Source: Bacteroidota bacterium (GTDB taxonomy: Bacteria; Bacteroidota; Bacteroidia; B-17B0; Aurantibacillaceae). Taken from it: a DNA stretch of 64,000 nt. The translations under genes and the position numbers were made by a program. Positions within the stretch are counted from its first letter, which is position 1. Each line of letters opens with the position of its first letter. This document shows, piece after piece, positions 52,915 through 58,208 of the stretch. Location: NCBI GenBank assembly GCA_018267475.1, contig JAFDYI010000022.1, forward strand, positions 62,001 through 126,000. The letters are read 5' to 3'. The notes below the pieces were generated by a model. The model ran no database searches. It was given only the letters and a program-made list of their open reading frames with translations, and was not told where the DNA came from.

Positions 52915-54945
52915 TTACTGTTTCATAAACTTAGTGTAAGAACCTTGCAGCATCACCGTATATATACCCGATGCGTAATTGCTAACATCTATTTGAGTAC
53001 TTGTGTTTTTTACCTGCAATACATCTACCACTTGCCCTAATGAGTTGTATAGAGTAACAAGTCCTAACTCAGAGGCTGCTTGTATGGTTATTTGGTTAGT
53101 AGCAGGGCTTGGGTACACTATGAGTTGCACGCTGTTTGCTGCCACTGAGGCAATGCCGGTACAAGCATCTACCGCAATGCTTACGGTAGCGGTGCTGCTA
53201 CAACCTGTAGTGGTATTGGTGTAGCTATATGCAGGGGTAAAAGTACCTGTAGTAGCGCCGGGCGTAAAGGTGTTGCTACTTACTTGGGCGCCGCTATACG
53301 TACCTCCCGCTGGGCTCCCTGTTAATGTGATAGGAGTTCCGTTTACACACACACTAGAAGAAGATGCCGTTATACTAACCGTAGGAGAAGCTGTAACGTT
53401 AACGGATACAGTAGCGGTATTCGTGCAGCCCACTGTACTGCTACCTATTACGGTATAAGTAGCGCTTACAGTAGGTGTTATGCTGATGCTAGCCGTAGTA
53501 GCCGATGTACTCCACGTATAGGTGCTGGCACCTCCTGCCATAAGCATATCGCTGCTGCCTGCACACACACTGCCCGACATAGCAGAGGCTGTTACGGTAG
53601 GCGTAGCGCCAACGGTAATGCTTATTTTAGTAGTATCTGAATAACAGCCCAGCGTGTTGGTGCCTATCACCTCATACGTAGTATTAACGGTAGGTGTTAT
53701 GCTGATGCTGGCTGTAGTAGCCGTAGTACCCCATGTATAAGTGTTGGCGCCACTTGCTGTAAGAGTGGCGGTGTTACCTATACACACATTATTGCTTGTA
53801 GCAGAAATGGTTACTGTAACCGGGGCACTGTTTAATAAAATGAGTGCGGTATTGACTCCGTTATTAACAGTGGCTAAATCCGGCCTTCCATCTCCATTAA
53901 AATCGGCGGTATAAATCATTTTTTGGGTACTTCCTGCTGTGTATGTAGGAGCATCGGTAAGGAATGTGCCTATTCCCGTGTTTAATAATACGGAAATAGT
54001 ATTATCTGTAGAGTTTGCTACCCCTAAATCTACTTTCCCGTCGCCATTAAAATCATTTGCGCAAACAGATATTGGGCCATTTCCTGTTGTATAAGGTGTC
54101 GCTGAATAAAATGTGCCTACGCCTGCATTAAGTAGCACCACAATATCATTATCCCCTTGATTGGACACAGCCAAATCCAGTTTGCCATCGTTATTAAAGT
54201 CTGCTGAACAAACAAAGGAAGGACTAGCCCCTACATTAGTGCTGATTGTATAACTATTAGCTGGATAAAAAGTGCCTGCTGCTGCATTTAATAAAACAGA
54301 TATACTAAGTTCGCCACCATTAGTTACTACTAAATCAGGTTTAGCATCTCCGTTCACATCTGTGGCGCATATACAAGTAGGACTATATCCTACTGTATAA
54401 GTGGGAGCTGTAGGAAAAGTGCCTGTACCCGAATTTAATAGCACCGAAACGGTATTATCCACAAAATTAGTTACCGCTAAATCAGGAATTCCATCTTCAT
54501 TGAAATCAGCAGAGCAAATAGTAGTAGGATTGCTTCCTACAGTATAATTGTGAGGTGTAGAAAAAAGACCAGTCCCTGATCCAAACAATACTGCTATATC
54601 ATTAGTAATATAATTAGCCGTTGCTAAGTCAGGTTTCCCGTCTCCATTAAAATCAGCCGCACAAACCGCCGTAGGACCATTGCTTACCGTATAACTGGCA
54701 GTAGTAGAAAAAGTACCTATTCCTGAACCAAACAAAACGGATACATCATTTGTAGTAATATTAGCCGTTGCTAAGTCGAGCTTCCCGTCCCCATTAAAAT
54801 CAGCTGAGCAAATATAGGATGGAGTTTGACCTACCGAATAGAAAACAGCTGGCGTAACGAAGCAAGGCGGCGGCCCAAACTGAGCTAAAACGCTTGTGCC
54901 GCATAAAGCCAGCGCAGCTAAAAAGGTTGTACGGTTTTTTTTCAT
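52915..54945 (-). CDS. T9SS type A protein with seven FG-GAP/VCBS repeats
   Basis: A 676-residue exported protein. A signal peptide (about 1-21, ending GTSVLAQ) is followed by seven repeats of about 50 residues with the calcium-loop type DFNGDGKLDLA (seen as SADFNGDGKLDL, AADFNGDGKPDL, SADFNEDGIPDL, ATDVNGDAKPDL, SADFNNDGKLDL, ANDFNGDGKVDL, TADFNGDGRPDL), enough for a seven-bladed propeller. Two or three Ig-like repeats (CIGNTATLTASGANTYTW) and a type A T9SS tail (IVYPSPATNQITIQAA, NYASGIYTVMLQG) follow. The protein is probably surface-bound and calcium-stabilised. It converges on the methyltransferase gene. Confidence 0.92.
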   Translation of the reverse strand: MKKNRTTFLAALALCGTSVLAQFGPPPCFVTPAVFYSVGQTPSYICSADFNGDGKLDLATANITTNDVSVLFGSGIGTFSTTASYTVSNGPTAVCAADFNGDGKPDLATANYITNDIAVLFGSGTGLFSTPHNYTVGSNPTTICSADFNEDGIPDLAVTNFVDNTVSVLLNSGTGTFPTAPTYTVGYSPTCICATDVNGDAKPDLVVTNGGELSISVLLNAAAGTFYPANSYTISTNVGASPSFVCSADFNNDGKLDLAVSNQGDNDIVVLLNAGVGTFYSATPYTTGNGPISVCANDFNGDGKVDLGVANSTDNTISVLLNTGIGTFLTDAPTYTAGSTQKMIYTADFNGDGRPDLATVNNGVNTALILLNSAPVTVTISATSNNVCIGNTATLTASGANTYTWGTTATTASISITPTVNTTYEVIGTNTLGCYSDTTKISITVGATPTVTASAMSGSVCAGSSDMLMAGGASTYTWSTSATTASISITPTVSATYTVIGSSTVGCTNTATVSVNVTASPTVSITASSSSVCVNGTPITLTGSPAGGTYSGAQVSSNTFTPGATTGTFTPAYSYTNTTTGCSSTATVSIAVDACTGIASVAANSVQLIVYPSPATNQITIQAASELGLVTLYNSLGQVVDVLQVKNTSTQIDVSNYASGIYTVMLQGSYTKFMKQ

Positions 54946-55063: not shown

Positions 55064-56551
55064 TTATTCGTAGGTGCTGATAGAACTGATGGGGGTGCAT
55101 ACTCCGTTTTCGCAGGTGTAGCACTGTAGTTTATCTTTAAAAATAGCCGGCTTGTATATAGATTTTCCTAAAAGCATGCGCAAACATTCTTGTATGCCTT
55201 CTATAATACTGGGGTGGGGGTGCATCATATCGGCTAATTCTCTAATACCTTGGCTGGTGTGTATTAAATAAGCTACTGCCTGTATGGCGCTGCTGGCATG
55301 CTCGCCAACGGCTCGCATACCTAAAATACGCATGCCGTTATCGTTTGTTACCAATATCTTAAAAAAGCCTTTTGTTTTTCGCATAGCTATGGCGCGGGCA
55401 TTCACGCTGTAATCTAGCTTCACTACTTTTACCGGTATGTTTTTTTGACGCACCTCTTGCTCGCTCATGCCCACGGCTCCTACCTCGGGGTTTAAAAACA
55501 TGATAGTAGAGATATTTTGATACGATATGGGTTTTATGGCAGGTCCAAACATGCGCACTACGGCGTGTCGCGCTTCGCGCTCGCCCACGCTTACAAGGGC
55601 TATGCCTCCGGTAACATCACCAGCTACATATATATTGCTGATGTTGGTCTGCGTATCATCATGGTAAATAAATCCACGTTCGGTAAGGTTAATGCCTATG
55701 TTTTCAATGCCTATGTTTTCAATGTTAGGAACGCGCCCTACAGCTATTAAGGCCTTCTCTACTGATATAATTTCCTTTTCTCCGTTTTTATAATTAAGCT
55801 CGTATTCTACCTTTCCATTTTTAAGTTCCATGCGCTCTAAAGAGGAGTTGTGATGCACTACTACTCCGTTGCGCTCTAAATTATGCGTAACGGTTTCAGA
55901 AATGTCTTCATCTTCAAAAGGCAGTATCCGGTTTGCTTTATCTATAATATAGACTTTAGTTTTTCCGAAGTTAGAAAAAATAGTAGCAAACTCGCAACCA
56001 ATAACTCCGGCACCCAATATCACCATGCTTTTGGGAAAGTCTTGAATGTTTCTAATCCCATCACTGGTAAGAATGGTTTTTTCATCCACCGAAATAGAAG
56101 GCAGGTAGCGCGGGCGACTACCGGTGGCAATCAATATATTTTCTGCATAAACAAGATGTGTAGTGCCGTCTCCTTTTTTTATTTCAACCGTATTTTTATC
56201 TATTATTCGAGCATCTCCTTTTTCATAATGAAAAAACTTGGAACCCAAAGCCGACTGCAACATGCCTGCGTGCAAAGTCATTTGCGTTTTACGTTCAAAA
56301 ACGGCTTCGCGTACATTACGAACAATATCTTCAAAAGGAATTTCGTAAGTAGGAATGGTTTCTCTTATAGCAGCCACGCGCATAGAGTGTTCCCAAAGGG
56401 TTTTGGAACTCAACACCCCGTCAAATAAGCCGGCGCCTCCCAATCGTTTTTTTTCAATGAGCAGTACTTTTTTTCTAAAATCAACGGCACGCATGGCTCC
56501 GGCATAGCCGGCAGGCCCTCCTCCTATAACTACTAAATCAAAATGCTCCAT
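55064..56551 (-). CDS. Dihydrolipoamide dehydrogenase-like flavoprotein lacking the redox cysteines
   Basis: A 495-residue FAD- and NAD(P)-binding oxidoreductase of the Lpd/mercuric reductase class. The FAD motif is GGGPAGYAG (10-18), the NAD motif is GAGVIGCEFA, and the FAD ribose-binding region is YVAGDVTGG. The C-terminal dimerisation domain has HPHPSIIEG, the His-Glu pair of Lpd. But the redox site CLNVGC is replaced by GLFDGV at residues 41-46: both cysteines are missing. A Cys-rich tail (CYTCENGVC) is found at the end. So it cannot use the normal disulfide; a transhydrogenase-like or other electron role is possible. TTG at 56566 is rejected as start, since a -7 box lies over it. Confidence 0.87.
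   Translation of the reverse strand: MEHFDLVVIGGGPAGYAGAMRAVDFRKKVLLIEKKRLGGAGLFDGVLSSKTLWEHSMRVAAIRETIPTYEIPFEDIVRNVREAVFERKTQMTLHAGMLQSALGSKFFHYEKGDARIIDKNTVEIKKGDGTTHLVYAENILIATGSRPRYLPSISVDEKTILTSDGIRNIQDFPKSMVILGAGVIGCEFATIFSNFGKTKVYIIDKANRILPFEDEDISETVTHNLERNGVVVHHNSSLERMELKNGKVEYELNYKNGEKEIISVEKALIAVGRVPNIENIGIENIGINLTERGFIYHDDTQTNISNIYVAGDVTGGIALVSVGEREARHAVVRMFGPAIKPISYQNISTIMFLNPEVGAVGMSEQEVRQKNIPVKVVKLDYSVNARAIAMRKTKGFFKILVTNDNGMRILGMRAVGEHASSAIQAVAYLIHTSQGIRELADMMHPHPSIIEGIQECLRMLLGKSIYKPAIFKDKLQCYTCENGVCTPISSISTYE
55691..55720. repeat. 15-bp exact tandem duplication within the flavoprotein gene
   Basis: AATGCCTATGTTTTC occurs twice in a row. In protein this is the repeat ENIGI-ENIGI. 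It keeps the frame and lies in a loop between the NAD domain and the FAD ribose region. Confidence 0.9.
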
Positions 56552-56663: not shown

Positions 56664-58208
56664 TTACAAAGGGATGTTTCCGTGCTTTTTCTTAGGGAGT
56701 TTATCGGCTTTGTTTTCTAGCATTTTAAAGGCTTTTATCAATTTTTCGCGAGTTTGTTCGGGTTTTATAACTTCATCAATAAAGCCCCTTTCGGCAGCAC
56801 GGTACGGGTTGGCAAACATAGCTTGATACTCGGCTTCTTTTTCTTTCCATTTAGCTTCTTTATCTTTTGCTTGGGCTATTTCTCCTTTAAAAATAATTTC
56901 AGCTGCACCTTTAGCCCCCATCACTGCAATTTCGGCTGAAGGCCATGCGTAATTCATATCGGCTCCAATGTGTTTGCTGTTCATTACATCATAGGCACCT
57001 CCATAGGCCTTACGCGTAATAACGGTAATGCGCGGCACGGTAGCTTCGCTAAAGGCATACAACAGTTTAGCACCGTTGGTAATAATGGCATTCCACTCTT
57101 GGTCGGTGCCGGGTAAAAAGCCCGGAACATCTTCAAACACTAAAAGAGGGATATTAAAGCTATCGCAAAAACGAACAAAGCGAGCTGCCTTGGTGCTAGC
57201 ATGAATATCCAACACGCCGGCTAACACAGCGGGCTGATTAGCTACAAGGCCTATGCTGCGGCCTGCCAAGCGAGCGAAACCTACTACTATGTTGTCAGCA
57301 AAGTGCTTATGTACTTCTAAAAAACTATCGGCATCAACTGTTCCGTTAATTACTTCTCTGATATCGTAGGGTTGGTTGGCGTTTTGTGGAATAATTTGAT
57401 TTAATTCTTTTCTTATTTCGTTCCCCGAATGTTCATAGGGTAGGGTAGGAGCATCTTCTTCACAGTTTTGTGGTATGTAGCTAAGCAGTTGTTTTATATG
57501 ATTAATACATTCTATCTCATTAGCGCAGGCAAAATGAGTAACTCCGCTTTTGCTGGCGTGCGTCATAGCCCCACCCAATTCTTCGCTGCTTACTTCTTCG
57601 TGGGTTACTGTTTTTACAACATTCGGACCGGTAACAAACATATAGCTGGTATTTTCTACCATTAAAATAAAATCGGTGATGGCAGGGCTGTACACGGCGC
57701 CGCCTGCACAAGGCCCCATAATAGCTGAAAGCTGAGGTACTACCCCGCTGGCACGCACGTTGCGATAAAAAATATCGGCATAGCCGCCCAAAGAAACGAC
57801 ACCTTCTTGTATGCGGGCACCACCGCTATCGTTTAAGCCAATAACGGGAGCTCCGTTTTTCATGGCTAAGTCCATTATTTTACAAATTTTTTCGGCATGG
57901 GTTTCGGATAAAGAGCCTCCAAACACCGTAAAATCTTGCGAAAAAACATATACTAATCGCCCGCCTATGGTGCCATAACCGGTAACTACGCCATCGCCTA
58001 AGTATTTCTCTTTATCTAAGCCAAAATCGTGACTGCGGTGGCTCACCATCATGCCTATTTCTTCAAAGCTGGCATCATCTAGTAAAAAATGAATGCGCTC
58101 GCGGGCAGTAAGCTTGCCCTTTTTATGTTGAGATTCTATGCGTTTTTCACCGCCGCCCAGTTTAGCCTCGGCTATTTTCTCTTCCAACCGTTGTATTTTG
58201 TTTTCCAT
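56664..58208 (-). CDS. Biotin-dependent acyl-CoA carboxylase carboxyltransferase (beta) subunit, propionyl/methylcrotonyl type
   Basis: A 514-residue carboxyltransferase that moves CO2 from carboxybiotin onto an acyl-CoA (likely propionyl-CoA, giving methylmalonyl-CoA). Visible are the N-terminal and C-terminal crotonase-like halves: [60 protein letters not shown], then [16 protein letters not shown] and [10 protein letters not shown]. The oxyanion-hole Gly-rich loops GGGSL-type ([12 protein letters not shown]) and GPCAGG are intact. A decarboxylase subunit of the same family is an alternative. No biotin carboxylase or biotin carrier gene is nearby. Confidence 0.93.

Follow-up and report, generated by a model that had tools for sequence, protein, structure and literature searches.

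Yeast Irc15p is a protein resembling dihydrolipoamide dehydrogenase (Lpd, E3) in which both redox cysteines are absent, replaced by Tyr and Ala, and the His-Glu dyad is kept. It is reduced by NADH at 250 s-1, and in vitro it reduces menadione, ferricyanide and DCPIP and none of the disulfides tested; a change of shape upon formation of hydrogen peroxide during flavin cycling has been proposed (PMC6296175, accessible part of the text). Mycobacterium tuberculosis LpdA (Rv3303c), an NAD(P)H quinone reductase, is a disulfide-less flavoprotein disulfide reductase that lacks one cysteine and the His-Glu dyad (same part of PMC6296175).

The soluble transhydrogenases (STH; SthA/UdhA) belong to the same superfamily and also have no functional disulfide. 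Their signatures are CXXXXT and YXXXXE, and an STH reported from Streptomyces avermitilis has SXXXXT, thus a motif free of cysteine. The disulfide-less SthA passes hydride between NADH and NADP+, and the C45A change lowers coupling and increases peroxide release (PMC9460512, accessible part of the text).

An Lpd-like gene with a cysteine-free redox loop

We found an Lpd-like gene without either redox cysteine in the window, the 64,000-nucleotide stretch of Bacteroidota DNA analysed here. The 495-codon frame starts at an ATG at 56551; the mechanically called ORF opens at a TTG, 56566. Its features, all read from the translation and the family alignment unless stated, are:

55064..56551, minus strand: CDS, cysteine-free Lpd-like FAD/NAD oxidoreductase, 495 aa (Pfam Pyr_redox_2 and Pyr_redox_dim)
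56504..56524, minus strand: N-terminal FAD dinucleotide-binding motif GGGPAGY, residues 10-16 (translation; G10, G12 and G15 at least 97% conserved)
56399..56440, minus strand: former redox loop GGAGLFDGVLSSKT, residues 38-51, with G41 and V46 in place of the redox cysteines
55991..56014, minus strand: NAD-site motif GAGVIGCE, residues 180-187, C186 and E187 conserved
55199..55219, minus strand: retained His-Glu dyad PHPSIIE, residues 445-451 (H446, E451)
55184..55186, minus strand: family-specific cysteine C456 (Cys in 126 of the 130 family rows with a letter; Ala or Gly in the seven Lpds compared)
55097..55123, minus strand: C-terminal tail CYTCENGVC, residues 477-485, with cysteines C477, C480 and C485; C480 and C485 co-vary as a CxxxxC pair, and a beta-hairpin of low pLDDT is predicted around them

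The window protein has the domains and fold of the flavoprotein disulfide reductase superfamily. Pfam reports Pyr_redox_2 and Pyr_redox_dim (189 and 86.7 bits), and a Foldseek search with a model of moderate quality (pLDDT 78, pTM 0.74; redox loop and His region low) gave query TM scores of 0.79-0.82 to Lpd chains among the 50 matches listed. By sequence and by fold the closest solved structures are Lpds; SthA stands lower in the list. The window protein thus resembles Lpd in fold and length, in its motifs for FAD and NAD, and in the His-Glu dyad. Unlike Lpd, the family lacks both redox cysteines, and most of its rows carry an extra C-terminal hairpin.

Ordinary Lpds read GGxCLNVGCIPSK (pattern GG.C....C.PSK) where the window protein reads GGAGLFDGVLSSK, and alignment of GGAGLFDGVLSSKT with that pattern puts the redox positions at G41 and V46. 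Neither column holds a cysteine in any of the 129 family rows with a loop (131-row alignment): column 41 is G in 115, A in 13 and Q in 1, and column 46 is V in 73 and A in 56. The CxxxxC of Lpds is therefore missing throughout, and the residues around it are kept. G45, L47, S49, K50, W53, E54, PHP 445-447 and E451 are near-invariant, as is E187; H446 and E451, the Lpd dyad, are conserved at 97% or more. The original prediction, that both redox cysteines were lost while the FAD, NAD and His-Glu motifs remained, thus holds at this gene and across the family, and the absence of cysteine from both columns bears out its corollary that the protein cannot carry out the lipoamide reaction in the known way.

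Other positions also set the family apart. Position 204 (D204 in the window protein) is acidic in 129 of 131 family rows, and the next residue, 205, is basic (K or R) in 130 of them. An acidic residue at the 204-type position of a Rossmann fold is usual for NAD(H) use. C186 of GVIGCE is common to E. coli SthA and one Rhizobium row and is absent from the seven Lpds compared. The window genome also encodes two further Lpds, both intact (CLNVGC and CLNWGC).

All four family members scanned stayed below every NCBIfam equivalog cut-off among the best 25 or fewer models listed for each. The best model for the window protein was lipoamide dehydrogenase TIGR01350 (373.3 bits, under the cut-off of 408.8); the three other members scored 316.3, 388.7 and 368.4 bits against it. 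The SthA, LpdA and MerA models gave the window protein 271-295 bits against cut-offs of 454-479 (SthA, 294.6 against 465; LpdA NF005883, 282.6 against 479). The residues differ as well: SthA keeps C45 (in CXXXXT) and YXXXXE, whereas the family has G/A....V/A (once with Q first) and HXXXXE, so neither STH motif is present. The family has lost both cysteines and kept the dyad, whereas LpdA lacks one cysteine and the dyad (PMC6296175, accessible part).

Irc15p, compared here through its published description, is alike in being Lpd-like with both redox cysteines replaced and His-Glu kept (PMC6296175, accessible part); its replacements are Tyr and Ala, those of the family Gly/Ala and Val/Ala. By that account Irc15p shares 40% identity with the Lpd1p of yeast, so its cysteine loss was probably independent of the family's.

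Distribution, phylogeny and selection

We found that the family is widespread in Bacteroidia. At E <= 1e-75 a relative was present in 79 of 295 sampled genomes of the class, and the window genome is one of the 79. A sample of 395 genomes from across the phylum gave 9; both counts follow from the threshold, with loops read in part of the matches. The weakest match of the phylum sample (G585) was an ordinary Lpd with CLNWGC and not a family member, which leaves eight. These two samples, both from Bacteroidota, are the scope of the genome scans. In a protein search of 59 relatives, the window genome not counted, 35 had a close ortholog; these scored at least 534 bits, and no other listed match exceeded 225 bits. 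A plasmid search, limited to 5000 records, gave as its best 40 matches listed proteins 30-33% identical to the window protein and mostly annotated as Lpd. Among the titles and abstract openings in reach, to which most subscription papers did not belong, none described this bacterial cysteine-free family.

Scoring five candidates per genome at E <= 1e-125, we found SthA in a single one of the 295 genomes and LpdA in none; the controls, E. coli and C. glutamicum, were positive.

In a 57-row IQ-TREE phylogeny, a branch of length 1.43 with 100/100 support separated the 44 family rows from every one of the 13 references, which are of Lpd, SthA, Gor, RclA and MerA type. The 44 rows were hand-picked for spread from 131, the root is the midpoint, and the long SthA, Gor and RclA rows are placed unsurely.

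The window gene is under purifying selection. By the NG86 method, dN was 0.09-0.10 and dS 1.8-2.4 between the window gene and four relatives at 85-86% identity, values that are rough because dS is near saturation. A fifth relative (78% identity) gave a dN of 0.16 and no usable dS. Together, the family-wide cysteine-free loop, the separation in the tree and a dN far below dS indicate that the loss is old and has been maintained.

Gene neighbourhoods

There was no conserved operon over the 131 loci examined, whose flanks vary in length; neighbours differ between lineages. In the window, an FG-GAP repeat protein whose C-terminus is a Por secretion sorting tail (52915-54945, minus strand) adjoins the gene downstream, and an MmdA-like carboxyltransferase (56664-58208, minus strand; 809.7 bits, under a cut-off of 998.8) lies just upstream in the same orientation. 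The latter did not cluster with ORFs of other loci within the flanks covered. Three further associations were seen, each identified by Pfam on one representative. A single frame (L100:3062-5968, minus strand; Pfam on L100) encodes a membrane H+-pyrophosphatase (PF03030) with a YceI-like domain (PF04264) behind it, possibly a fusion; ORFs of its cluster occur in 33 of 131 loci, in opposite orientation and in most cases immediately upstream. Di-haem cytochrome c peroxidase/MauG-type genes are convergent to the flavoenzyme gene in nine loci (L127:3079-4233, minus strand, and eight others; Pfam on L127). An MMPL-type membrane protein directly follows it in five of the six loci of lineage f43 (L164:5226-7601, plus strand, and four others; Pfam on L164).

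The recurrent informative neighbour was pntA/pntB. In six of 131 loci an ORF of one or the other cluster is less than 2 kb away from the gene: L088, L091, L119 (one ORF between), L131, L141 (convergent) and L176. These fall in lineages f1 (L088, with L091 beside it in the tree), f6, f25, f32 and f38. Both long and apparently split forms of PntA occur near the gene, the split judged from ORF sizes. In NCBIfam scans, PntA and PntB of L088 were over their cut-offs; PntA of L091 was over one of two cut-offs, and its PntB scored 417 bits, under 689.

Among the 45 sampled genomes with both genes, pntB lies within 2.7 kb of the family gene in at least five (G041, G060, G067, G284 and G307), two of which share a genus. 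With random placement in 3.4 Mb, about 0.13 such cases within 5 kb would be expected over the 45 genomes; five gives p ~3e-7 and four (one per family) ~1e-5, figures that are indicative because pnt was chosen after the neighbours had been viewed. Presence of the family was linked neither to PntB (45 of 79 genomes with the family, 146 of 216 without; p = 0.10) nor to NuoF (58 of 79 and 145 of 216; p = 0.32). Strict dependence on PntAB can thus be rejected, although the closeness recurs. So can the idea that the enzyme stands in for a missing NADH input module of complex I: NuoF of the window genome is over its family cut-off and there is no correlation with NuoF, which matched at E <= 1e-60 in 203 of 295 genomes (167 over the cut-off).

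Candidate reactions and the C-terminal cysteines

Based on these results, we suggest, with a probability of roughly 0.55, that the family consists of NADH-reduced, FAD-only oxidoreductases that work without thiols and pass electrons through the emptied disulfide pocket to a putative quinone or other small oxidant, or to NADP+. The original prediction had offered a transhydrogenase or diaphorase as one option, and on the sequences a role of that kind now appears to be the best reading. Several observations point to it: a cysteine-free loop beside near-invariant K50, W53, E54, PHP 445-447 and E451; the tree and the low dN relative to dS; the acidic D204 and the two intact Lpds of the genome; the near absence of SthA and LpdA from the class; pntB close by in at least five of 45 genomes; and the precedent of Irc15p (PMC6296175, accessible part). 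Against it stand the weak synteny, the lack of correlation with PntB or NuoF, the moderate model, and the conservation of C456 and C477, with which some thiol role would be possible.

The enzyme would be a homodimer that belongs to the flavoprotein disulfide reductase superfamily and has abandoned thiol chemistry. NADH would reduce FAD by the normal route at the usual flavin face, as the intact FAD and NAD motifs, K50-E187 and D204 suggest. Because the disulfide is absent, the flavin would have to give its electrons directly to the acceptor. We infer that the acceptor enters the pocket vacated by the cysteines at the dimer interface, where H446-E451 of the partner subunit would be the likely acid/base. 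The tail CxxxxC pair would be a lineage-specific accessory, structural or redox-regulatory.

A considerably less probable reading is that the family is the Bacteroidia counterpart of soluble transhydrogenase, moving electrons from NADPH or NADH through FAD to NAD+ or NADP+ and balancing both pools beside PntAB. The pntA/pntB genes close by in five lineages, with their long and apparently split PntA forms, and the scarcity of SthA in the class fit this idea, as does the C186 of GVIGCE, which E. coli SthA and one Rhizobium row also have and the seven Lpds compared do not. From the alignment, K/R205 might contact the 2'-phosphate. The SXXXXT of the S. avermitilis enzyme shows that an STH motif need not contain cysteine; the family nevertheless lacks both CXXXXT and YXXXXE as described in the accessible part of PMC9460512, and falls well short of the SthA cut-off. 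D204 favours NAD(H) over NADP(H), and the absence of co-occurrence with PntB also speaks against it.

It is unlikely, and less probable than a transhydrogenase, that disulfide reduction has been retained with a relocated centre, C480/C485 or C456/C477, reached from the partner subunit. Tail thiols of a partner subunit are the arrangement of mercuric reductase and high-Mr thioredoxin reductase. In both, however, the C-terminal tail is served by the active-site CxxxxC that is missing here. C456 (126 of 130 rows) and C477 (Cys in 120 of the 124 family rows with a letter) are well conserved and His-Glu is kept, which speaks for a relocated centre.

The history of C480 and C485 bears on both sides. 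Most family rows have a tail of roughly 25-30 residues beyond the last common helix. Across 128 rows (L089, L105 and L116, split or partial, were left out of the tail tree), both cysteines are present in 71, neither in 41 and one in 10, and six rows, lineage f43, have no tail. The 71 rows that score at least 700 bits to the window, its nearest, comprise 64 with both and 7 with neither; of the other 57 rows, 7 have both. L102 and L178, close kin below 700 bits, also lack the two.

On the near rows, parsimony requires six changes at C480, six at C485 and six in the pair state, which means that the two positions always changed together. Over all 128 rows the counts were 14, 13 and 17, which makes the coupling strong and not absolute; outside the near rows it is looser, with the ten single-cysteine rows. 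The model has strands at 478-481 and 484-487 that would set C480 opposite C485, at low confidence. The pair therefore looks like a disulfide or a shared ligand.

Rows without a tail, and rows without C480 and C485, carry the same cysteine-free loop. The pair is thus dispensable and uncoupled from the loss in the loop, and the tail is not a general replacement thiol. The original prediction had offered the tail as a possible new source of thiols and asked whether it is conserved together with the altered loop. The joint conservation does not hold; a thiol role is possible, given the co-variation in near rows, and is not favoured. The tail is still of interest because its two cysteines were gained or lost together in the near family.

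It seems improbable that the protein is non-catalytic or regulatory, serving as an FAD scaffold that senses NADH and controls a partner through its redox state. The lack of a conserved operon and the shape change proposed for Irc15p as peroxide forms (PMC6296175, accessible part) would suit such a role, but the near-invariant K50, E187, H446 and E451 point to catalysis. Simple decay of an Lpd paralogue, which the lost catalytic cysteines might have suggested, is rejected for the family, since it occurs in 79 of 295 genomes with shared loop residues and dN far below dS, and it groups apart from ordinary Lpds in the tree.

The NADH:acceptor oxidoreductase reading is the one we prefer. On their scores, dihydrolipoyl dehydrogenase is the most likely label for the four members scanned, an activity that they cannot have by the known mechanism. 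The family shows that giving up the redox disulfide while keeping His-Glu, known from yeast Irc15p (PMC6296175, accessible part), is a broad and old solution in bacteria as well. The family is a natural set for asking what the dyad does without thiols, and the paired changes of the tail are a natural experiment on accessory cysteines; the hairpin pair may be a fresh, late gain or may have been lost frequently. As a tentative suggestion, this old cysteine-free branch, widespread in Bacteroidia, could stand in for SthA and LpdA in this class, balancing NAD(P)H or reducing quinones, with the His-Glu dyad reused for a new proton-coupled reaction and the CxxxxC hairpin pair serving as a redox switch in some lineages.
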